A DNA stretch of 33,257 nt. It comes from Clostridia bacterium. Lineage in GTDB: Bacteria; Bacillota; Peptococcia; DRI-13; SV3-B141. Below are positions 1,234 through 33,180 of this stretch, in pieces. The stretch spans positions 1 to 33,257 of the forward strand of contig JAHDSB010000014.1 of the NCBI GenBank assembly GCA_018433015.1, written 5' to 3'. Below the pieces are notes generated by a model that searched no databases, was not told where the DNA came from, and saw only the letters and a program-made list of their open reading frames with translations. Each line of letters starts with the position of its first letter. Position 1 is the first letter of the stretch. The position numbers and the translations under genes are program-made.

Positions 1234-2724
1234 TTAGTCGAGGATACCAGCATATTTGCAAGTGATTTTGATAAGAGCAACAAGACCTTTAATAGCAAGT
1301 CTAGTTCTGTCTTCAATCAAGTTACCTGCATCATCTAAGGTGTTCAAACCTGTGGAGATGTAGATGTTACCATCATAAGCGATTGTGGGAACCATTCCCA
1401 TAGCTCCGATACCTTCTTGGAAGATGTTGGTTCCGCCGTACATATCTTCAATTGAGAAGATAGGAACACCCATCTTGCCATCGGCCCAAGTTTTTTCGTA
1501 GTTAACTTCAACTGCACAGGAGTTGTAGGACTTAGTGAAAGTGAAGCCCTTCAGAATTTCAGCAGGAAGACCCTTCTGGAATTCATCTACAACAATGTCA
1601 TACATTCCATCAACAGGTTTAGTCATGATTTCAGGTTTGTCTTTCAGTACACGCATAGCAGCAAGAGCACCGAGTAAACCTTCTTTACCAGGATCAAATG
1701 CAACGCTTACAGCCTTACCATAGGAAGAAAGAGAACCATAACGGTTACCATGGAAGCCCATAGCACGACGAGCGTTAACCATAACGTCTTCTTTACCGAT
1801 AATCATACCGCAAATGGAAGAACCAGTAGCTTTATCCATGGAGTAAACAATAGCGTCAGCACCAGTCTTACGAATGTCATGACCAACGAAAGGCAGTCCC
1901 CAAGCGCAGTCAACAACGTAAGGTACATCGTATTTATGAGCTACGTCAGCAAGAACTTTTTGCAGAATAGGAGTTCCTTCTGCGTCATGATCTCCATAAC
2001 CGTAACCAGGAGTGTCATAACCGATAGAAGTAATACCGGAAAGCATAGTAGCATGACGTGCAGCATATTCTTCGATAACAGCTCTGTTAGGTTCACCCTT
2101 TACATCAGAAAGTAAGGGAGCTGGGAAGTATTGGATACCATGGTTATCATAGTTAGCACCCTCTAAAGGAGTAACAACAACATCTAATCCATTTTGTCTC
2201 TTACCTTGCATGCTCAGTTCACCAGCGGTACAACCTCTGTTAGCAATGATATCCTTATATTTTGGAGGGAAAGGACGTCCATATCCACCTTGGTGATGGA
2301 AATGTTTTTCTAGAGGAGCCAGGTAACGAGCACGATAAGTTTCACCAGAACCTACGATAGGAGGCATAAACATACTTGTGTAGCATACGTTGATACCAGC
2401 TTCACATGTAGCAGTGGGGCATACATCATATTCTGCACCATAGAAATCTTTAACCATGTAACGCATTTCTTCTACGTAGCCAGCAAGACCCTTAACAGCC
2501 TTAGCTTCTTTATGAGTGTATTCCAAAACGTCATCACGTAGAGGAGCAGGACAACCGGAAACACCACCAGTTAAACCAAAAGTTCCGCGGCCTTCTGCTT
2601 TTAATTTAGCAAGTTCGTCGGCAATACCGATTTTTTTTGCTTCTTCAGCAGCGTCAGCATAAATGTTCTTGATGTTAGCATGCAAATTGCTATACATTTG
2701 AGTTTTGTACTTAAATTTTGCCAC
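1234..2724 (-). CDS. Fold-type-I PLP-dependent enzyme, function unknown, in a cobalamin mutase operon
   Basis: A 496-residue protein with the layout of the aminotransferase / beta-eliminating-lyase superfamily. A small N-terminal domain contains a Gly-rich stretch (GTFGLTGGVSGCPAP, 47-61). The PLP-ring aspartate is probably D272 (VVDCAWGLP). K298, in SMDKATGSS, is the likely Schiff-base lysine, followed by the typical CGMIIG strand. The region around residues 140-175 is rich in His and Gly (KHFHHQGGYGRP) and looks family-specific. I cannot place it among aminotransferases, tyrosine phenol-lyase/tryptophanase-like lyases or SelA-like enzymes. The start is GTG, with AGGAG (2735-2739) 10 bases upstream. 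It is the last gene of the operon, 81 bases after the mutase-like gene with a hairpin between. The context suggests it acts on the substrate or product of the mutase, probably an amino acid (inference). Confidence 0.75.
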   Translation of the reverse strand: MAKFKYKTQMYSNLHANIKNIYADAAEEAKKIGIADELAKLKAEGRGTFGLTGGVSGCPAPLRDDVLEYTHKEAKAVKGLAGYVEEMRYMVKDFYGAEYDVCPTATCEAGINVCYTSMFMPPIVGSGETYRARYLAPLEKHFHHQGGYGRPFPPKYKDIIANRGCTAGELSMQGKRQNGLDVVVTPLEGANYDNHGIQYFPAPLLSDVKGEPNRAVIEEYAARHATMLSGITSIGYDTPGYGYGDHDAEGTPILQKVLADVAHKYDVPYVVDCAWGLPFVGHDIRKTGADAIVYSMDKATGSSICGMIIGKEDVMVNARRAMGFHGNRYGSLSSYGKAVSVAFDPGKEGLLGALAAMRVLKDKPEIMTKPVDGMYDIVVDEFQKGLPAEILKGFTFTKSYNSCAVEVNYEKTWADGKMGVPIFSIEDMYGGTNIFQEGIGAMGMVPTIAYDGNIYISTGLNTLDDAGNLIEDRTRLAIKGLVALIKITCKYAGILD

Positions 2725-2769
2725 TCTCTAACAACTCCTTTTAATATATGTTTAATTTTTTCTTATATA

Positions 2770-2794
2770 AAGTGAACATAATTGGGGTTCACTT
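2770..2794 (-). other. Hairpin between the mutase-like and PLP enzyme genes
   Basis: Perfect 8-bp inverted repeat AAGTGAAC (2770-2777) / GTTCACTT (2787-2794) with a 9-base loop. Downstream on the minus strand comes TTTATATAAG rather than a T run, so it is a poor terminator. It may be an operator, a partial attenuator or an mRNA-stabilising or processing stem that changes the ratio of the two products. Nothing in the sequence decides between these. Confidence 0.4.
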
Positions 2795-2805
2795 ATTAAG
2801 CATAA

Positions 2806-4620
2806 TTACTTTTTAATGATCGAATCTCTTCCAGCTCTACCAGGATATGCACCTTCAGCCACACTTCCCAGTAAACCATCATATAAGGAATCTACATAAC
2901 TGCCTTTTTCTACAATAGTCTCTAAAACGCCTTGAATACCTTTAACTATTCCTTCGGCCATTTTATCGGCATTATCAGTAGCTTGTATTCCAGCTTTACC
3001 AAAGAAGCGGAATGCTTCTTTTAAAGCACGTAGAGTATCGATACGAGATGGTGCTGCAATAGGACCACCCGAATAAGCCTCATCTGAAGATGCTATTGAA
3101 ATTGCTTCTACACCCAAGGATGCAGCTAATGCACCGTGCAGTGCAGTAGACATAGAGGACTGAACTCTATCTTCAGTCTGGGTCAAGAAGCCAATAGGTG
3201 CTCCTGGCCAGATGGGGGCATCGACAATACTACGCAATGCTCTAATCTTAGCAGCATTGAAATCTATATAGTTATCTTCCATATCACCAGACACCATTAC
3301 TTCAGGTGAATAACAGAAGAGAGGTTGCAACATCGGTCTGCCACCAAGGCGTATCCCTAAATGAGCAGTAATCAACATACCAGCAAAAGCCTTATATGCC
3401 GGTACTCCACATAACTCTTCATTTGTTACTACATCAAAGGAGAGATTATACTTAGTAGCATATTTTATAGCTTGAATAGCATCTATAGTCAAACGTGACG
3501 GATCTGTTCCCCCACCTAAAGAACCATAGGCTATATTAATCTTTGTCATATCGGCACCCATTGCTCCAGCTAACAATACTGTTTCCGGAGTGTTAAGTCC
3601 CCGGTGAGCCCTGACCTGCCATAAAGTATGATCACATAAAGAACCTTTAATACGCATCAAGTTTTCCGGCGTAATAATGGACCCATCCTCTTCATGGGTT
3701 AAGTAGCCTTCCAGAAAACCTTCTGTACGTGCACCCCAAGAGGGATCGAAGTGTACTACTCCATCTGCTCCCCATGCTTCACACGCTTTGATATGGGCGA
3801 TATCCATAAAGGGACATCCAGTTCCATATTGAATGAAGACAGTAGGTTTTTTTCTGGTATGCTGGATTTTTTGAACAGACATTCTCTCTTGAGTTACTTT
3901 TACGTATTCTGCCAGTTTATCCAGTTCTTCCTGTGCTAACGCCCTAGTCTTAGGAGGTAATACTCCATCTTTGTAATAATCCTTGATTTTCTGGTCACAA
4001 TATGACAAGTACTCATCTAAAAGCTCAGTTCTATCTTGTCCATAAGGTACTTCCAGAAGTTTTTCTCTCACTTCGGCACGTTTTATACCAGGTGATGTCT
4101 TGTCTTTTGCCCAATCAAGAATATTATCTACAATCTTGTCTAACAGTTCGCCTATTTCTTTGTTCTTATATTTATAACTAAAAGGTTCTGTGATATCAGA
4201 TTTTTGTTTGTTAGCTCCGGCAGCCTCAGGAACATATTCTACTCCTTCTAGAAAAGCCAGCAGCTCTTCTGCTTTTGTTCCCGGTCCAAAGCCTGCATCA
4301 TAGCCAAGCTCTTGCGCTAACTCAGGACGCACTCCCATGCCGCCCATAACTAGTGTAGCTTTTTCTCTTAAACCTGCTGCTTCTGCTAAATCAGCAAATT
4401 TAGAAAGTAATTCTGCTACTCCATAGCCCAGGGTACGGCTTACTAGGATGGCTCCTGTATCATTTTCTAAAGCAACTTTAATTATTTCTTCCGATTGATA
4501 ATCCGGAGGTAAAAGTACTGTTTTATAACCTGCCTCATCTAAGGCTCTTTTCATTATCTTTAAACCAATATCATGAACAGGGTCTAAAGGAGCTAATAAG
4601 ATCGTCTTTTCTTTATTCAT
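2806..4620 (-). CDS. Cobalamin-dependent mutase-like protein (B12-binding domain fused to a glutamate-mutase/aminomutase-like barrel)
   Basis: A 604-residue protein. Residues 1-130 form a Rossmann-type B12-binding domain: D13-P-V-H16-D-I-G19 supplies the probable lower-ligand His, with VSRTLG (60-65) and MGGMG (92-96) as the later S and GG elements. Residues 145-255 are helical and charged. Residues 258-590 look like the TIM-barrel catalytic domain of AdoCbl mutases (GADMTKINIAYGSLGGG; AISIASSDEAYSGGPIAAPS), loosely resembling glutamate mutase E. In lysine and ornithine aminomutases the B12 domain lies in a separate subunit or at the C-terminus; here it is N-terminal, and D and H of the motif are one residue further apart than in DxHxxG. 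The ATG overlaps the preceding gene by 8 bases (ATGAATAA), so translation is probably coupled. The reaction is unknown; a carbon-skeleton or amino-group shift on an amino acid is my best guess. Confidence 0.75.
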   Translation of the reverse strand: MNKEKTILLAPLDPVHDIGLKIMKRALDEAGYKTVLLPPDYQSEEIIKVALENDTGAILVSRTLGYGVAELLSKFADLAEAAGLREKATLVMGGMGVRPELAQELGYDAGFGPGTKAEELLAFLEGVEYVPEAAGANKQKSDITEPFSYKYKNKEIGELLDKIVDNILDWAKDKTSPGIKRAEVREKLLEVPYGQDRTELLDEYLSYCDQKIKDYYKDGVLPPKTRALAQEELDKLAEYVKVTQERMSVQKIQHTRKKPTVFIQYGTGCPFMDIAHIKACEAWGADGVVHFDPSWGARTEGFLEGYLTHEEDGSIITPENLMRIKGSLCDHTLWQVRAHRGLNTPETVLLAGAMGADMTKINIAYGSLGGGTDPSRLTIDAIQAIKYATKYNLSFDVVTNEELCGVPAYKAFAGMLITAHLGIRLGGRPMLQPLFCYSPEVMVSGDMEDNYIDFNAAKIRALRSIVDAPIWPGAPIGFLTQTEDRVQSSMSTALHGALAASLGVEAISIASSDEAYSGGPIAAPSRIDTLRALKEAFRFFGKAGIQATDNADKMAEGIVKGIQGVLETIVEKGSYVDSLYDGLLGSVAEGAYPGRAGRDSIIKK

Positions 4621-4852
4621 CTTTCTTACCCCCTTCTAACCAGCCATAACGATCACCTGCACGATGAATATATCCTCTAGCACGAACTCTAGCTCCAGGT
4701 CCTTCATATTGAATAAAAACAATATCAGTATCTTTCAGACCAAAGCTTTCCAGAAGCTTTAAAGCAAGGGTTCTGCCTTCTTCTTCATCTTTGCAGGCAA
4801 AGAAAGTTTCAATGTCAACAGCATCAACAATCTTCTTGTAGCACTCTTCCAT
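4613..4852 (-). CDS. Small protein of unknown function, probable small subunit of the mutase-like enzyme
   Basis: A 79-residue acidic, soluble protein with no signal peptide. It has an N-terminal helix pair (residues 1-35) and a likely beta region IVFIQYEGPGARVRARGYIH. I do not recognise the family, and it does not resemble OraS, the small subunit of ornithine aminomutase. The frame is open upstream to a TTG at 4876, but GGAGG lies 8 bases before the ATG at 4852, so I take that start. Its stop overlaps the start of the 604-residue mutase-like gene by 8 bases. Such tight coupling suggests that the two products form a complex, as small S subunits do in glutamate and ornithine mutases (inference from arrangement only). 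Confidence 0.7.
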   Translation of the reverse strand: MEECYKKIVDAVDIETFFACKDEEEGRTLALKLLESFGLKDTDIVFIQYEGPGARVRARGYIHRAGDRYGWLEGGKKDE

Positions 4853-4908
4853 TATTCCTTCCTCCCACCTCATCAATGATGAGCAGTATTAATCAAAAAA
4901 ATAAAGAG

Positions 4909-5637
4909 TCAATTCCCTTCCACTAAATCCCAATATCTCTTTACGTCTCTTATTATATTTTCTAGATGATCAACCATAGCTTTTTCTGCTAAATCAGGAT
5001 CGCGCTTTTCTATAGCCGTAACTATTTTGGCATGATCAAGTGACACTACACTGTGAACTTCTTTACGAATAAATTCCAACACCGGAGCAAGCTGTCCATC
5101 CTGTCGAATGAGTTCCATGGCCCCTTCTAAGACTTTATTACGTGAAGCCTTAGCCACAATACGATGGAATGCTACATCCTGTTCAGCAGCTCCTCCTCGG
5201 ACATGGGCCACACGTTCCTTTTGCATACGCTGTATATGCCACAATCCTTTTATTTCATCTTCTGTAGCATTACTAGCAGCTAAACGAGCTATTTCCCTTT
5301 CAATGGCCCGACGGGCTACCAAAATATCAATTAACTCATCTTTCGTTCTACTTTCTAAAGCCCTAAAAAATTCTTGTCCTTGGTCAGAACGAATTTTTTT
5401 CTCTTCCAACTCTTTCAGTCTTTCGGTTCCTTTACTCGTTAAAGTCCTTCCTTGATAGCCTATTCTATTAGTATAATTCAAACTATCCATTTGAGCAAGG
5501 ATTCTACCAGCTGTAGCTTCACTGACATCAAGGCCGTAATTTTTAAATTCTCGACTTAAATAACCCGACCCAACAGGAGATTGACTTTGGTTGATTATTA
5601 GCAACGTCAGGTATTCCTGTCTTTCTTTATTTACCAA
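4909..5637 (-). CDS. Transcriptional regulator with winged-helix N-terminus and FCD ligand domain
   Basis: 242 residues. Residues 1-75 form a winged helix of the type found in NrpR/RNase-R-like regulators (REFKNYGLDVSEATAGRILAQM). Residues 95-235 are an all-helical FCD domain as in FadR/GntR regulators. The metal-site pattern D-x3-H...H...H is present: D154, H158, H202 and H224. FCD domains usually bind carboxylates through the metal, so the effector may be an organic or amino acid used by the downstream enzymes. The start is TTG, with AGGTGG (5645-5650) 7 bases upstream. It is the first gene of the operon, 56 bases before the small subunit gene, which suggests self-regulated control of that pathway. 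A TTGT-N5-ACAA repeat lies in its leader. Confidence 0.82.
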   Translation of the reverse strand: MVNKERQEYLTLLIINQSQSPVGSGYLSREFKNYGLDVSEATAGRILAQMDSLNYTNRIGYQGRTLTSKGTERLKELEEKKIRSDQGQEFFRALESRTKDELIDILVARRAIEREIARLAASNATEDEIKGLWHIQRMQKERVAHVRGGAAEQDVAFHRIVAKASRNKVLEGAMELIRQDGQLAPVLEFIRKEVHSVVSLDHAKIVTAIEKRDPDLAEKAMVDHLENIIRDVKRYWDLVEGN

Positions 5638-27309: not shown

Positions 27310-28482
27310 TTAAGTTAAGGCCGATAGTACCGAAACACGCATAATTATTCCCATGAATTTATCGGTTTCATCAACTACAGCAATAGGATATTTGCTGGAA
27401 GAAGCTTTAGAAATTAAATCCTGTACGTAAGTTTCTGGGTCTGTAGTAAAGTAATCCTTAATTAAGATATCTTTTAAGGTCTTGCCATCCTGCATAGCTT
27501 TAATGGTATCATCAATAGTCACCAGCCCTCGTAATTTCCGTTCACTATCCACTACGAAAACACTGGAAATCCCATTAGTTTTCATTTCTTTAACAGCTAC
27601 TTTCAACCCATCTTTTATGGACACAAGGGCAGAAGGTTTGAATAAAATATGCTTGGCCTGGACTACCTTACTCTTATCTACATCCTGTACAAAGTTTTCA
27701 ATATATTCATTTACAGGGTTAGCTAATATCTCTTCCGGAGTACCGATTTGTTCAATTACGCCATCCTTCATAACAGCCACACGATCCCCTAGCTTAAAAG
27801 CTTCATTAACATCGTGGGTTATAAATATAATTGTTTTTTTAAGTTTTGCCTGTATGTCTAGGAGTTCTAACTGCATATCCCGTCGAATGAGGGGATCTAA
27901 CGCGCTAAAAGGTTCATCCATTAATAGTATATCGGGATCGTTAGCCAATGCTCTGGCTAAGCCTACCCGTTGTTGCATTCCCCCGCTCAATTCACTAGGA
28001 TATTTATCTTCCCAACCTTCTAGACCTACAGTAGCCAACATATTTTTAGCTTTCTCATATCTCTCTTCTTTAGGTACTCCTCTTATTTCTAAACCATATT
28101 CCACATTACGGATAACTGTACGATGTGTTAAGAGTCCGAAGTGCTGAAACACCATAGCCACTTTCTTTTGTCTAAACTCTCTTAATTCTTGCTTATTATA
28201 TTTAACAATGTCTTCACCATTAACTTCAATACTTCCTTCAGTAGGCACATTCAGCATATTCAAACAACGAATAAGGGTTGATTTACCACTTCCTGATAAC
28301 CCCATTATTACAAACATTTCTCCATCATTTACATCAAAGGAGACATTATTGATACCTACCGTATGTCCTGTCTGCTTTAAAATTTCTTCTTTTGTAAGAC
28401 CACCCTTTAATTTTTTCAATGTTGCTTTAGGGTGACGTCCAAATATTTTTGTAAGGTTCTCCACTTTCACTTTAACAGTCAT
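27310..28482 (-). CDS. opuAA: Glycine betaine/proline-type ABC transporter ATP-binding protein (OpuAA/ProV-like)
   Basis: The ATPase subunit of a betaine importer of the Opu/ProU family. Of 390 residues, Walker A GLSGSGKS is at 61-68, the Q-loop at Q113, the signature LSGGMQQ at 165-171, Walker B ILLMDE at 185-190 and the switch H223. The N-terminal 40 residues (KIFGRHPKATLKKLKGGLTK) are the family extension. Two C-terminal CBS domains (about 270-330 and 335-390) would sense ionic strength, as in OpuA of lactic bacteria. It follows the permease gene by 56 bases. GGGTG is 7 bases before the ATG. Confidence 0.93.
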   Translation of the reverse strand: MTVKVKVENLTKIFGRHPKATLKKLKGGLTKEEILKQTGHTVGINNVSFDVNDGEMFVIMGLSGSGKSTLIRCLNMLNVPTEGSIEVNGEDIVKYNKQELREFRQKKVAMVFQHFGLLTHRTVIRNVEYGLEIRGVPKEERYEKAKNMLATVGLEGWEDKYPSELSGGMQQRVGLARALANDPDILLMDEPFSALDPLIRRDMQLELLDIQAKLKKTIIFITHDVNEAFKLGDRVAVMKDGVIEQIGTPEEILANPVNEYIENFVQDVDKSKVVQAKHILFKPSALVSIKDGLKVAVKEMKTNGISSVFVVDSERKLRGLVTIDDTIKAMQDGKTLKDILIKDYFTTDPETYVQDLISKASSSKYPIAVVDETDKFMGIIMRVSVLSALT

Positions 28483-28538: not shown

Positions 28539-29393
28539 CTACTGTTGAGGCACTTTATGACGATTTACAATACCCTGAGTTATCCGATCTATGATAATTG
28601 CCAGGATAACAATGCTTACACCAGATTCAAAACCACGAGCTATATCTATACGGTTAATAGCTATTAAAACTTCCATTCCCAGTCCTCTGGCTCCGATCAT
28701 GGAACAAATAACAACCATTGATAGTGCCATCATCGTTGTTTGGTTAATCCCGGTCATAATTGTTGGTAGAGCCTGCGGAAGCTGAACTTTATAAAGTGTT
28801 TGCCAATTTGATGAACCAAAAGAATGAGCTGCCTCCACCATTTCTTTAGAAACATTTTTAATACCTAAATTAGTCAACCTGATTACAGGAGGAATTGCGT
28901 AAACTGTTGTCGCGATAACAGCCGGTACCATACCCATACCAAAAAGTAATACTGCAGGGATTAGGTATACAAAACCCGGCATGGTTTGCATTGCATCTAA
29001 AGTCGGTTTAACAATTATTTCTAACTTGTCTTTATATGTCATTAATATGCCAATAGGAATCCCCACTATTAAAGATATTACTACGGAAGTAAGTACTACG
29101 GATAAAGTAGACATCATATAGCCCCATAGTCCAAAAGATCCTATTAACAATACCAGAAATGCATAAAGAAGTCCTGCTGTAATCTTCTTATATCTCCAGC
29201 CTAATAAAAATATTACTAACAAAATACCCCACCAAGGGACCCACAATAAAAACTCTTCAATTTTTAATAAAACCCATAATATACCATCACTAATAGCATT
29301 AAATATATCACCAAAATTATGCATTAGCCACTTTACTAACCAATCTACATATATACCTACTTTAAAAGTAATTGCTTCTGGAAAACTACCCAT
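28539..29393 (-). CDS. opuAB: Glycine betaine-type ABC transporter permease (OpuAB/ProW-like)
   Basis: 284 residues: an N-terminal region with two hydrophobic segments (about 18-70), then the core permease with the EAA loop EAAHSFGSSNWQTLYKVQLP and the ending GIVNRHKVPQQ. The frame is open to a GTG at 29432, but the ATG at 29393 gives MGSFPEAITFKVGIYVDWLV. By memory this aligns end to end with the Bacillus OpuAB N-terminus (...DIIDRFVDWI). A GTG start has no free ribosome site. For the ATG the Shine-Dalgarno is separated by a 22-base hairpin (see next entry). The gene forms an operon with opuAA under a shared operator-type promoter. Confidence 0.9.
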   Translation of the reverse strand: MGSFPEAITFKVGIYVDWLVKWLMHNFGDIFNAISDGILWVLLKIEEFLLWVPWWGILLVIFLLGWRYKKITAGLLYAFLVLLIGSFGLWGYMMSTLSVVLTSVVISLIVGIPIGILMTYKDKLEIIVKPTLDAMQTMPGFVYLIPAVLLFGMGMVPAVIATTVYAIPPVIRLTNLGIKNVSKEMVEAAHSFGSSNWQTLYKVQLPQALPTIMTGINQTTMMALSMVVICSMIGARGLGMEVLIAINRIDIARGFESGVSIVILAIIIDRITQGIVNRHKVPQQ

Positions 29394-29401
29394 AAATAGC
29401 A

Positions 29402-29429
29402 GTTGTTGCAAAAATGCAACAACCTCCTT
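29402..29429 (-). promoter_or_regulatory. Shine-Dalgarno plus hairpin in front of opuAB
   Basis: AAGGAGG (29423-29429, minus strand) touches a perfect 9-bp hairpin GTTGTTGCA/TGCAACAAC (29402-29423) with a 4-base loop, and then 8 bases lead to the ATG. The linear SD-to-ATG distance of 29 is too long. Folding would bring it to a usable 8. Melting would weaken initiation, so the stem may act as a structural switch. Confidence 0.6.
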
Positions 29430-29499
29430 CACCCCCCATATTTTAGCTTTAAATTTTATTTCAAATAATCTTCAGGTTCTTATAAACATCTTAAAATCT

Positions 29500-29587: not shown

Positions 29588-29623
29588 ATGATACTACACC
29601 TACAACTTCATGTCAAGTTGCAG
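29588..29623 (-). promoter_or_regulatory. Promoter of opuAB-opuAA with shared operator
   Basis: TTGACA (29611-29616), 17-base spacer and TATCAT (29588-29593), read on the minus strand. The inverted repeat CTACAACT-N8-AGTTGCAG (29600-29623) overlaps the -35 box. The same repeat lies at the same offset before binding proteins 1 and 3. Confidence 0.72.
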
Positions 29624-29650
29624 ATTGTCTGTTGTTATTTTCTGTATATA

Positions 29651-29678
29651 AAAAACGGGGGCATAGGCACCCGTTTTT
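29651..29678 (-). terminator. Terminator of betaine-type binding protein 1
   Basis: Stem AAAAACGGG (29651-29659) / CCCGTTTTT (29670-29678), 36 bases past the stop on the minus strand. Confidence 0.78.
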
Positions 29679-29714
29679 CTAATTTTTATATTAAAACCAA
29701 TTATTATAAATAAA

Positions 29715-30734
29715 CTATTTCAAAGCCTCCTCAACTTTCTGAGCTACATCTTCCGTAACCCATTGGCTCCACATATCTTTGTTATTTTTAAGAAACCATA
29801 TGGCTACTTCCTCAGTTCCCACATTATTATCCTGCATATAAGCTAAGGCTCTACTGGTCAAAGCACTACTGGTCTTATATTTTTTTAGAAACTCACAAAC
29901 TTCCGGTGCTTTTTCCGGCATTTCTTTGCTAACACAGATAGTCACGCGGCAGGGAGGAAATTCGCATTTATATCCGTCTCCCCACTTTTCTTTACTAAAT
30001 GCCGGTTCCTCTATAAATGTCATGTCATATTTACCCATTATCCAAGTTGGTTCCCAATAATATCCAACCCAAGGTGTTCCTTCCTCCATTGCTTTCACTA
30101 TGGAGCTGGAAAGTGCTGTATCTGAACCAGGTCTGAATAAATTGTATGTATCACTTAAATTATAACTATCCATTTTGTCTGCAATAATTTCGTCAGCAGC
30201 CCAACCAGGTATTGCTCCATATATTCTGCCTTTAGTCTTATCTTCAGGATCCCGGAAAAGTTCCCAGTATTCAGGCAGATCTTCTACTGATTTTAAATCA
30301 GGAGCTAATGCTTCTATTCCTCGCTCAGGATCACCTTTAATTAAATAAGTGGGCACATAATACCCCTGTCTATTATCACCAAAGTTTACGCCTAATTCTA
30401 AAACATCTCCACTTTCAATAGTTTCGGAATATTTTCCAATATTATCAGACCAGGTCTCCATATAAATATCTATATCCCCCATACTCACTCCTGTAAAGCA
30501 GACAGGGGTGGACCCCATTTTAACTTCTGTTTTATATCCGTATCCTTTTTCTAATATTATTTTAGCAACATCATTATGAAAACGAATACTATCCCATCCT
30601 GAGTCTGCCAACACTAATTTTGGTTTCTCATTGTCGGCCTTATCTTCTTGAGAACAAGCAGTTCCGGCCAATAGTACTCCTATTAACAAAAAAATACTAA
30701 GTATAGCTGCACCTTTTTTGTTTCGTAAAACCAC
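29715..30734 (-). CDS. Glycine betaine-type (OpuAC) substrate-binding lipoprotein 1
   Basis: The 339-residue precursor has an N-terminal signal and a lipidation cysteine at 27 (LAGTAC). The mature part is an OpuAC/ProX-like type II binding protein with the segments DSGWDSIRFHNDVAKIILEKG (first 20 residues characteristic), IDIYMETWSDN and VGYYWEPTW. These supply the aromatic residues that usually cage a quaternary ammonium group. The frame is open to a TTG at 30803, but that codon is the -35 box of the promoter. The GTG at 30734 lies 7 bases after GAGAGGGGA and starts a proper signal peptide. Ligand: glycine betaine or a related betaine (family inference). It has its own operator-type promoter. 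Confidence 0.9.
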   Translation of the reverse strand: MVLRNKKGAAILSIFLLIGVLLAGTACSQEDKADNEKPKLVLADSGWDSIRFHNDVAKIILEKGYGYKTEVKMGSTPVCFTGVSMGDIDIYMETWSDNIGKYSETIESGDVLELGVNFGDNRQGYYVPTYLIKGDPERGIEALAPDLKSVEDLPEYWELFRDPEDKTKGRIYGAIPGWAADEIIADKMDSYNLSDTYNLFRPGSDTALSSSIVKAMEEGTPWVGYYWEPTWIMGKYDMTFIEEPAFSKEKWGDGYKCEFPPCRVTICVSKEMPEKAPEVCEFLKKYKTSSALTSRALAYMQDNNVGTEEVAIWFLKNNKDMWSQWVTEDVAQKVEEALK

Positions 30735-30774
30735 TGTAAAATCCCCTCTCTTCTCATCTAAATGGTCCAGAATT

Positions 30775-30810
30775 ATGATACTATACCTACAACTCTGGGT
30801 CAAGTTGTAG
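30775..30810 (-). promoter_or_regulatory. Promoter of binding protein 1 with shared operator
   Basis: TTGACC (30798-30803), 17-base spacer, TATCAT (30775-30780) on the minus strand. The perfect 8-bp inverted repeat CTACAACT-N8-AGTTGTAG (30787-30810) overlaps the -35, exactly as at opuAB. Confidence 0.75.
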
Positions 30811-30841
30811 ATTGTTAGTTATTTTTTTGCTATTACAAAGA

Positions 30842-30867
30842 AACAGGAGCTATTTAAAGCACCTGTT
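30842..30867 (-). terminator. Degenerate second terminator after binding protein 2
   Basis: Stem AACAGG-a-GCT / AGC-a-CCTGTT with one mismatch and a 6-base loop, then TTCTTTG on the minus strand. Its core resembles the AGGTGCT/AGCACCT stems at 30920 and 32018, so it may be a decayed copy. Confidence 0.4.
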
Positions 30868-30919
30868 CCTATCCTTAATATTTTGGAAATGTATCCCATA
30901 ATTATAACCAATTAAAAAA

Positions 30920-30959
30920 TATAAAACATAGGTGCTTATTTTAGCACCTATGTTTTATA
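30920..30959 (-). terminator. Terminator of binding protein 2
   Basis: A 17-bp stem (arm TATAAAACATAGGTGCT) with a 6-base loop, followed on the minus strand by TTTTTT. It lies right after the stop codon. Confidence 0.85.
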
Positions 30960-30961
30960 CT

Positions 30962-31984
30962 TTATTTTAAAAAAGCTTCCACACTTTTTACCACATCTTC
31001 CGGCACCCATTCATTCCACATATCTTTGTTATTTTTAAGGAACCACTTTGCAGTATCTTCCGTACTGGCATTATTGTCCTGCATATAAGCTAACGCCTCG
31101 CTAGTCAATTCACTACTGGTTTCATATTTCTTCAAAAACTCTACAACATCCGGAGCTTTCTCAAGCATATCCTTATTAACACATACCGTTACTTGGCATG
31201 AAGGAAAGGCACATTTATAGTCTCCTTCTTTCCATTTATTTATATCAAAAGAAGGCTCTCCTAATAAGACCATATCATATTTTCCTATCACCCAAGTAGG
31301 TTCCCAATAATATCCCAACCAGGGTTTTCCTTCTTCTATGGCTTTCACAATTGAGCTGGAAAGAGCTGTATCTGAACCAGGTCTAAATAAGTTGTAGTTC
31401 TCATTTAAACCATAGTTTTTAACCTTTTCTGCCAGTTGTTCGCTAACAAGCCACCCGGGTATAGCCCCATATATTCTGCCTTTAGTCTCATCTTCTGGGT
31501 CTTTAAATAATTCCCAATATTTAGGCAGGTCATATATGGATTTTAAATCAGGTGCTAACGCCTCGATTCCTCTTTCCGAATCGCCTTCAATCACATATCT
31601 AGGTACGTACAGACCCTGCCGATTATCTCCAAAATTTAAGGAAAGCTCTAATATATCTCCTTTCTCAAGGGCTTCGGGATACTCACTAATATTATCAGAC
31701 CAAGCTTCCATATAAATATCTATATCTCCCTGTCTTAGTCCTGTAAATGTTATCGGAGTGGATCCCATCTTAACATCTGTTTTATAACCATACCCTTTTT
31801 CAATAATTATCCTTGCAACATCATTATGAAACCGCATACTGTCCCATCCTGCATCACCTAATACTAGAGTTGGCTTATCATCTGTTGCCTTTTGTTCTGT
31901 CCCAGCGCAACCAACAGATCCTAATATAACGCTAATAAGAACAAACAAACTTATAGTCATTATGGTACTTTTGTGCTTGATCAT
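30962..31984 (-). CDS. Glycine betaine-type (OpuAC) substrate-binding lipoprotein 2
   Basis: A 340-residue precursor with signal peptide and lipidation cysteine 26 (GSVGC). The OpuAC core is clearly paralogous to copies 1 and 3, with DAGWDSMRFHNDVARIIIEK, AWSDN and LGYYWEPTW. It is the most divergent copy in one place: after IYGAIPGW it reads LVSEQLAEKVKNYG, where the others have AADEI(I/M)A. This could change the ligand pocket or the contact with the permease. AGGGTGG is 6 bases before the ATG. There is no operator-type promoter in the 72 bases upstream, which are filled by the terminator of copy 3, so expression probably depends on read-through. Confidence 0.92.
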   Translation of the reverse strand: MIKHKSTIMTISLFVLISVILGSVGCAGTEQKATDDKPTLVLGDAGWDSMRFHNDVARIIIEKGYGYKTDVKMGSTPITFTGLRQGDIDIYMEAWSDNISEYPEALEKGDILELSLNFGDNRQGLYVPRYVIEGDSERGIEALAPDLKSIYDLPKYWELFKDPEDETKGRIYGAIPGWLVSEQLAEKVKNYGLNENYNLFRPGSDTALSSSIVKAIEEGKPWLGYYWEPTWVIGKYDMVLLGEPSFDINKWKEGDYKCAFPSCQVTVCVNKDMLEKAPDVVEFLKKYETSSELTSEALAYMQDNNASTEDTAKWFLKNNKDMWNEWVPEDVVKSVEAFLK

Positions 31985-32017
31985 ACTTGTCCACCCTTCC
32001 TGTGCTAATGTTTTATT

Positions 32018-32051
32018 AAAAAATAGGTGCTTCTTTTAGCACCTATTTTTT
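32018..32051 (-). terminator. Terminator of binding protein 3, possibly leaky
   Basis: Stem AAAAAATAGGTGCT / AGCACCTATTTTTT with a 6-base loop, 5 bases after the stop. Its core is the same as in the terminator of copy 2, as expected if gene and terminator were duplicated together. Confidence 0.82.
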
Positions 32052-32056
32052 ATACT

Positions 32057-33079
32057 TTATTTTAAAGAAGCTTCCACACTTTTTGCCACATCTTCCGGCA
32101 CCCATTCACTCCACATATCTTTGTTGTTTTTAAGGAACCACATTGCGGCCTCTTCTGTTCCCACATTATTATCTTGCATATAAGCTAACGCCCTACTAGT
32201 TAACTCGCTGCTGGTTTTATATTTTTTCAAAAATTCTACTACATCCGGTGCCTTTTCAGTCATATCCTTGTGTACACAAACTGTTACTTGGACAGATGGG
32301 AACTCACATTTATAACCATCTTCCCATTTCTCTTTAGAAAAAGCAGGCTCCTCTATTAAAGTCATATCATATTTACCCATTATCCAGGTAGGCTCCCAAT
32401 AATAACCCAACCAAGGTTTGCCTTCTTCTACCGCTTTAACCATAGAACTGGATAGAGCTGTATCCGAACCAGGCCTGAATAAATTATATTTCTCATTTAA
32501 TCCGTAATTCTTTACTTTTTCCGCCATTATTTCATCAGCAGCCCAACCAGGTATTGCTCCATATATTCTTCCTTTAGTCTTATCTTCAGGATCCTGGAAA
32601 AGCTCCCAGTATTTAGGCAGATCTTCTATAGATTTTAGATCAGGTGCTAAAGGCTCAATCCCTCTCTCCGGATCGCCTTTAATAATATAAGTAGGTACAT
32701 ACATTCCCTGTTTATTATCGCCAAAATTTAAAGATAATTCTAATACATCTCCATTTGTTAGGGCTTCCTGATAATTATTTAAGTTATCGGACCAGGTTTC
32801 CATGTAGATATCTATGTCCCCTTGTATTAAACCTGTAAAAGTAACAGGGGTGGATCCCATTTTAACATCTGTTTTGTAACCATAACCATTTTCAATAATT
32901 ATTTTAGCTACATCATTATGAAAGCGTATACTATCCCATCCTGCATCAGCCATTACTAAAGTAGGTTTTTCCTTAACAGCTGCATTCTGTCCGTCCTGGG
33001 AACAACCGACGCCAAATCCTATCATTATTAGCATTAATAAAAGAACTAACACCGCTCGTGATTTTTTTATTCCAAACAT
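32057..33079 (-). CDS. Glycine betaine-type (OpuAC) substrate-binding lipoprotein 3
   Basis: A 340-residue precursor with signal peptide and lipidation cysteine 26 (GFGVGC). The mature OpuAC domain has DAGWDSIRFHNDVAKIIIEN, IDIYMETWSDN, IPGWAADEIMAEKVKNYG and LGYYWEPTW. It is closer to copy 1 than to copy 2 at the PGWAADEI segment. GGAGGG is 5 bases before the ATG. It would feed the OpuAB/OpuAA importer along with its paralogues. It has its own promoter with the shared operator and is followed by copy 2 after a hairpin that may leak. Confidence 0.92.
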   Translation of the reverse strand: MFGIKKSRAVLVLLLMLIMIGFGVGCSQDGQNAAVKEKPTLVMADAGWDSIRFHNDVAKIIIENGYGYKTDVKMGSTPVTFTGLIQGDIDIYMETWSDNLNNYQEALTNGDVLELSLNFGDNKQGMYVPTYIIKGDPERGIEPLAPDLKSIEDLPKYWELFQDPEDKTKGRIYGAIPGWAADEIMAEKVKNYGLNEKYNLFRPGSDTALSSSMVKAVEEGKPWLGYYWEPTWIMGKYDMTLIEEPAFSKEKWEDGYKCEFPSVQVTVCVHKDMTEKAPDVVEFLKKYKTSSELTSRALAYMQDNNVGTEEAAMWFLKNNKDMWSEWVPEDVAKSVEASLK

Positions 33080-33115
33080 TTTTTCCCTCCATTTTTTCTC
33101 AATTATTATATTAGT

Positions 33116-33151
33116 ATATTACTATTTCTACAACTCGCTGTCAAGTTGTAA
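33116..33151 (-). promoter_or_regulatory. Promoter of binding protein 3 with shared operator
   Basis: TTGACA (33139-33144), 17-base spacer, TAATAT (33116-33121) on the minus strand. Inverted repeat CTACAACT-N8-AGTTGTAA (33128-33151) covers the -35 at the same offset as in the other two promoters. Confidence 0.72.
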
Positions 33152-33180
33152 GTTGTCTATTGTTATTTAATGTATAAAAA

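Follow-up and report, generated by a model that had tools for sequence, protein, structure and literature searches.

Transporter genes and promoters of the cluster

The window, that is, the whole stretch of 33,257 nucleotides that was analysed, carries on its minus strand the genes of an ABC transporter with three separate substrate-binding proteins. By family membership (OpuAC proteins, a ProW-like permease, and a ProV-family ATPase), the target of the operators described below is a betaine-type osmolyte ABC transporter, and its substrate is probably a betaine-like compound. The features are as follows:

27310..28482, minus strand: proV-like ATPase with CBS domains (Pfam ABC_tran and CBS)
28539..29432, minus strand: proW-like permease (Pfam BPD_transp_1)
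29588..29616, minus strand: proWV promoter TTGACA-17-TATCAT (11/12 matches), with the -35 box between the operator halves
29600..29630, minus strand: predicted bipartite operator of the proWV operon, gACAATC-N15-AGTTGTag, spanning the -35 box
29715..30734, minus strand: proX3, a paralogue 75% identical to proX1
30775..30803, minus strand: promoter TTGACC-17-TATCAT of proX3
30787..30817, minus strand: predicted bipartite operator of the third binding-protein gene (proX3), aACAATC-N15-AGTTGTag
30962..31984, minus strand: proX2, a paralogue 75% identical to proX1, without an operator of its own
32057..33079, minus strand: proX1, OpuAC-family substrate-binding lipoprotein (Pfam OpuAC, 4e-56)
33116..33144, minus strand: promoter TTGACA-17-TAATAT of proX1
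33128..33158, minus strand: predicted bipartite operator of the first binding-protein gene (proX1), gACAACT-N15-AGTTGTag, also found at the start of contig C156

Among solved structures, proX1 is closest to 7YLE, which carries the annotation of a betaine/proline-type binding protein (E value, 1e-34). The ATPase scores 445.7 bits against NCBIfam TIGR01186, above the cut-off, and the permease falls under the cut-offs of the NCBIfam choline/ProW equivalogs. The binding-protein genes are tandem paralogues with 74 to 80% DNA identity. A gap of 72 bp, containing a perfect 15-bp hairpin, separates proX1 from proX2, which apparently has no promoter of its own and may rely on read-through. Near-identical AGGTGCT/AGCACCT hairpins follow proX2 (30916-30963) and proX1 (32017-32052), a pair that is consistent with the tandem duplication of a gene together with its terminator. 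The true start of proX3 is probably at 30734; the TTG at 30803, taken as the start by the ORF caller, falls inside the operator. The same genome encodes a second, OpuC-like betaine transporter (L154, G000:C180:37890-40916). At the other end of the window (1234-5637) lies a possible aminomutase-like locus that matches no named family well and encodes a 496-aa protein weakly matching PLP enzymes, an FCD-type regulator that carries an HTH_12 domain, and a 604-aa protein with a B12-binding domain and weak similarity to lysine/ornithine aminomutase subunits.

The first-pass annotation had described three near-identical repeats lying over TTGAC(A/C), each with a 17-base spacer to the -10 box, and both the pattern scan and the inspection of the promoters confirmed this description. 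The repeat CTACAACT-N8-AGTTGTAG matches at 29600-29623 (one mismatch), 30787-30810 (none), and 33128-33151 (one mismatch). Allowing up to three mismatches, the window contains no matches but these 3, against 0.10 expected, and none of 100 shuffles of the window contained three. The corresponding minus-strand promoters carry -35 boxes TTGACA, TTGACC, and TTGACA and -10 boxes TATCAT, TATCAT, and TAATAT, with a 17-bp spacer in all three cases. These sites precede proWV, proX3, and proX1, and none stands before proX2. The whole-genome motif scan proposed by the first-pass annotation, carried out over 3.75 Mb, found the compact repeat with at most one mismatch at these three promoters only. A fourth listed match (C156:8-31) is the third site again, as the end of that contig overlaps the end of the window over 137 identical bp, and the two were merged. 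Compact-repeat matches with two or more mismatches were rejected as further targets, those inspected sitting in coding or unrelated DNA; at up to three mismatches the genome holds 45 matches, versus 27 for a reversed-pattern control.

Contig C156 extends the locus upstream into an MTHFR-like gene, followed by an aminotransferase gene, and therefore no regulator gene is adjacent on that side either; the earlier statement that none is adjacent holds in the window and past the contig end. The proposal of joint control of proWV, proX1, and proX3 by one regulator seated at the -35 box is supported.

Form of the operator among relatives

Among relatives, a scan identified the site ahead of proX in two further families belonging to the order. 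Alignment of nine promoters (the three in the window and six from other genomes) showed that three elements are kept in all nine: ACAAY, positioned 7 bp outside the compact left arm, TTGAC, and AGTTG. Of these promoters, only those of the genome of the window, of G014 (the genome of locus L035), and of G004 keep the compact left arm CTACAACT, which is separated from the right arm by 8 bp. This left arm is replaced in L034, L036, L038, and L039, all of which retain the outer half-site. Because the outer ACAAY is kept in all nine promoters and the inner arm is lost in four, we take the operator to be a wider bipartite dyad, ACAAYT-N15-AGTTGT (NAC-N23-GTN), with the -35 box inside it. The sites reported earlier are thus real matches, but their exact footprint needs revision: the compact palindrome was rejected as the core operator, since its left arm is not conserved, and the conserved element is wider. 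The conserved geometry, two half-sites about 21 to 22 bp apart, as for the tetrameric BusR, likewise speaks against the simple dimeric regulator that had been envisaged.

A scan of half-site gaps upstream of proX in 80 genome loci gave a gap of 15 in 13 loci and of 14 in 6 loci. A second peak at gap 22 (5 loci at up to one mismatch) corresponds to a further ACAAY-like repeat 7 bp outward, and every other gap occurred in 0 to 3 loci. With at most one mismatch, 9 of the 10 sites found across the order outside the genome of the window are located immediately before proX or, in the case of G010, before proW. The order-wide pattern gave no convincing site in the BusR-bearing genomes G001, G002, G005, G009, G016, and G020. 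Locus L076 carries an exact GAC-N22-GTC, which links the N22 and N23 forms of the operator. Over the whole genome of the window, the wide dyad with one mismatch occurs 74 times, versus 62 in the reversed-pattern control. Two occurrences with perfect wide half-sites were set aside as probable chance matches: C81:2793, beside phage-tail-like and sigma-factor genes, and C180:39390, within the gene of an OpuCB-like permease that neighbours another OpuAC gene.

The BusR homologue and its co-occurrence with the dyad

A betaine-transporter promoter bearing two half-sites spaced by about two helical turns led us to consider BusR, whose known motif is GAC-N22-GTC and which binds as a tetramer with a coiled-coil ruler (Bandera 2021, PMC8517857). 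The genome encodes one BusR homologue (G000:C172:10393-11028), unlinked to the transporter cluster and located between a gene for a Big_2-domain repeat protein and CvpA-like and HEAT-repeat genes (L144, G000:C172:8000-14000); G004 (L147) and G014 (L150) share parts of this gene neighbourhood. Both of its domains, PF00392 (GntR; 47.1 bits) and PF02080 (TrkA_C/RCK_C; 56.3 bits), score above the cut-off, and its best solved match, nearly over the full length, is the S. agalactiae BusR 7B5T (E value, 1.3e-28). In NCBIfam, no BusR equivalog came out above the cut-off. The winged helix-turn-helix (wHTH) and RCK_C domains are joined by a coiled coil of 50 amino acids, as in S. agalactiae, and the coil has 50 residues without indels in all 49 sequences of our alignment (48 homologues and the S. 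agalactiae BusR), including those from owners of N22-type sites. Coil length was therefore rejected as the cause of the difference between N22 and N23.

Among the DNA-contact residues, the homologue retains Tyr13, Arg38, Arg53, Gly70, and Gly72, with Lys54 replaced by Arg and Lys36, which is needed for DNA binding in S. agalactiae, by Ser. The c-di-AMP pocket keeps Ile153, Asn157, Ala164, Thr165, and Ile166, has Ile for Val158, and is changed by Gly154Ala, His160Ser, and Pro181Ala. The alignment was also searched for the autoinhibition patch Trp159/Pro181/Phe182/Tyr13, of which only Tyr13 is retained, the others being Trp159Arg, Pro181Ala, and Phe182Asp; arginine in place of Trp159 is common to the whole subfamily. 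A DAC-domain protein (diadenylate cyclase) is encoded in the genome.

BusR homologues were then sought in the genomes of all 80 proX loci, in a comparison that spans about 100 other genomes overall. One locus with a decayed BusR copy (L056) was set aside, leaving 79, namely 34 from BusR-bearing genomes and 45 from genomes that lack BusR. All 19 loci with a gap-14/15 dyad (at most one mismatch) belong to BusR-bearing genomes, and none of the 45 BusR-less loci has one. Gap-15 sites alone occur at 13/34 versus 0/45 loci (P = 3.5e-6), and leaving out the five motif-defining loci gives 14/29 versus 0/45 for gaps 14 and 15 (P = 1.7e-7; shuffled sequences gave a mean of 0.69 loci and a maximum of 4), although these P values overstate independence because the genomes are related. 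Dyad-positive loci come from Desulfotruncus, Maledivibacter, Epulonipiscium-like, and other clostridial lineages; the cultured relatives Desulfotruncus arcticus (L050) and Maledivibacter halophilus (L077) have both the site and BusR. Of the loci, 15 of the 34 BusR-positive loci (L037 and L046 among them) have no clear site. This co-occurrence, like the sites, their conservation, and the homologue itself, was computed directly.

A refinement that we consider unlikely, though worth weighing, is that BusR uses three half-sites, the inner arm serving as a lineage-specific extra contact which, with the upstream 7-bp repeats, would give tighter or graded control. ACAAY-like repeats with a 7-bp period do precede the -35 box at all three sites, the second gap peak equals 15 + 7, and gap 22 with up to two mismatches occurs at 13/34 BusR-positive versus 0/45 BusR-negative loci. 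In the S. agalactiae complex, two of the four winged helices touch the DNA with no clear preference for a sequence, but this second helix pair is displaced inward by a quarter turn only, and not by 7 bp (Bandera 2021, PMC8517857), and the inner arm is confined to three lineages.

BetI, of the TetR family, and the MarR-like GbsR/OpuR are regulators of choline or betaine uptake or use. An unrelated dimeric repressor of this sort (GbsR/OpuR-like, BetI-like, or other), acting on the compact CTACAACT-N8-AGTTGTAG with BusR co-occurring through ancestry only, would account for the near-perfect palindrome at each of the three sites and for its presence in G014 and G004 as well. We regard it as very improbable. 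The left arm is missing from four orthologous promoters that retain the outer half-site, the correlation with BusR persists outside the order (the 14/29 versus 0/45 above), and the wide motif is of the same type as the published BusR motif. The half-site geometry fits BusR better than BetI or GbsR/OpuR. BetI itself, a candidate in the first-pass annotation, drops out, the best match in the genome reaching 53.7 bits against an NCBIfam TIGR03384 cut-off of 201.3. That the repeats are mere strong -35 context, bound by nothing and copied along with the tandem duplication of the binding-protein genes, is hardly credible, given that the proWV promoter lies outside that duplication and has the same site, that the half-sites flanking the -35 box are conserved in other families, and that the site is confined to BusR-bearing genomes.

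Proposed regulation and comparison with BusR-busA

The three sites are very probably operators of an unlinked BusR-type repressor acting in trans, which would block the -35 boxes and be released by osmotic stress. The proposed regulator, encoded at G000:C172:10393-11028, would be a tetramer that combines winged helices of the GntR family with a coiled-coil ruler and RCK_C domains, gripping the half-sites NACAAYT and AGTTGTN, which flank the -35 box at a distance of about two helical turns from each other. So bound, it would straddle a near-consensus -35, as BusR does on pAB2 of S. agalactiae, where its site overlaps the -35/-10 region (PMC8517857), and would occlude RNA polymerase. Osmotic stress or solute demand would shift the effector state and release all three promoters together, so that proWV and the binding proteins would be induced jointly. 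We infer that the protein binds these sites physically, that it represses and does not activate, and that c-di-AMP and/or ionic strength control it; repression is the most likely mode of action by analogy with BusR elsewhere.

The assignment of the repressor and its target is well supported computationally, and that of the signal is not. The inducing signal is the least certain part because the patch residues are lost while the pocket core is kept, and in S. agalactiae Trp159Ala uncouples DNA binding from c-di-AMP (Bandera 2021, PMC8517857). As Trp159, Pro181, and Phe182 are here Arg, Ala, and Asp, coupling to c-di-AMP may differ from that in S. agalactiae. The autoinhibition patch being absent, the homologue is therefore filed as a BusR-type variant, predicted to act like BusR on DNA, and not as a canonical c-di-AMP-switched BusR. 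More tentatively, and with the odds in our view against it, a large clostridial BusR subfamily (Arg for Trp159, PGPF motif lost) might have abandoned c-di-AMP-released autoinhibition and regulate ProXWV via a 23-bp ruler and extra half-sites spaced by 7 bp, in response to ionic strength or another ligand.

An orphan operator thereby gains a candidate regulator, and, within a non-exhaustive literature search, the BusR regulon would extend from lactic acid bacteria to strict anaerobes of the Clostridia. The subfamily, which keeps most of the c-di-AMP pocket without the coupling residues, offers a natural test of signal transmission by RCK_C and of the rigidity of the 22-bp molecular ruler.

The closest known system is BusR-busA(opuA) of Lactococcus lactis and Streptococcus agalactiae (Romeo 2003/2007, as cited in PMC10243994; Devaux 2018, PMC5919688; Bandera 2021, PMC8517857). 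BusR repression in these two species is reviewed as dependent on c-di-AMP and ionic strength (PMC10243994), and c-di-AMP promotes DNA binding by the S. agalactiae protein (PMC8517857). The system described here shares with it a protein of GntR wHTH, coiled coil, and RCK_C, equal in protein and coil length, a predicted operator that places two inverted half-sites over the promoter, about two helical turns from each other, and a betaine-type ABC transporter as the target. It differs in that the sites of the window are NAC-N23-GTN, one base wider than the N22 of all characterised BusR sites, with a half-site core ACAAY of variable first base instead of a strict GAC, and in the loss of the Trp159/Pro181/Phe182 patch. 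Further differences are the repetition of the operator at three promoters of one gene cluster and the ProXWV layout with three separate binding proteins and an unlinked busR. We regard it as a variation on known biology, not as a new system.
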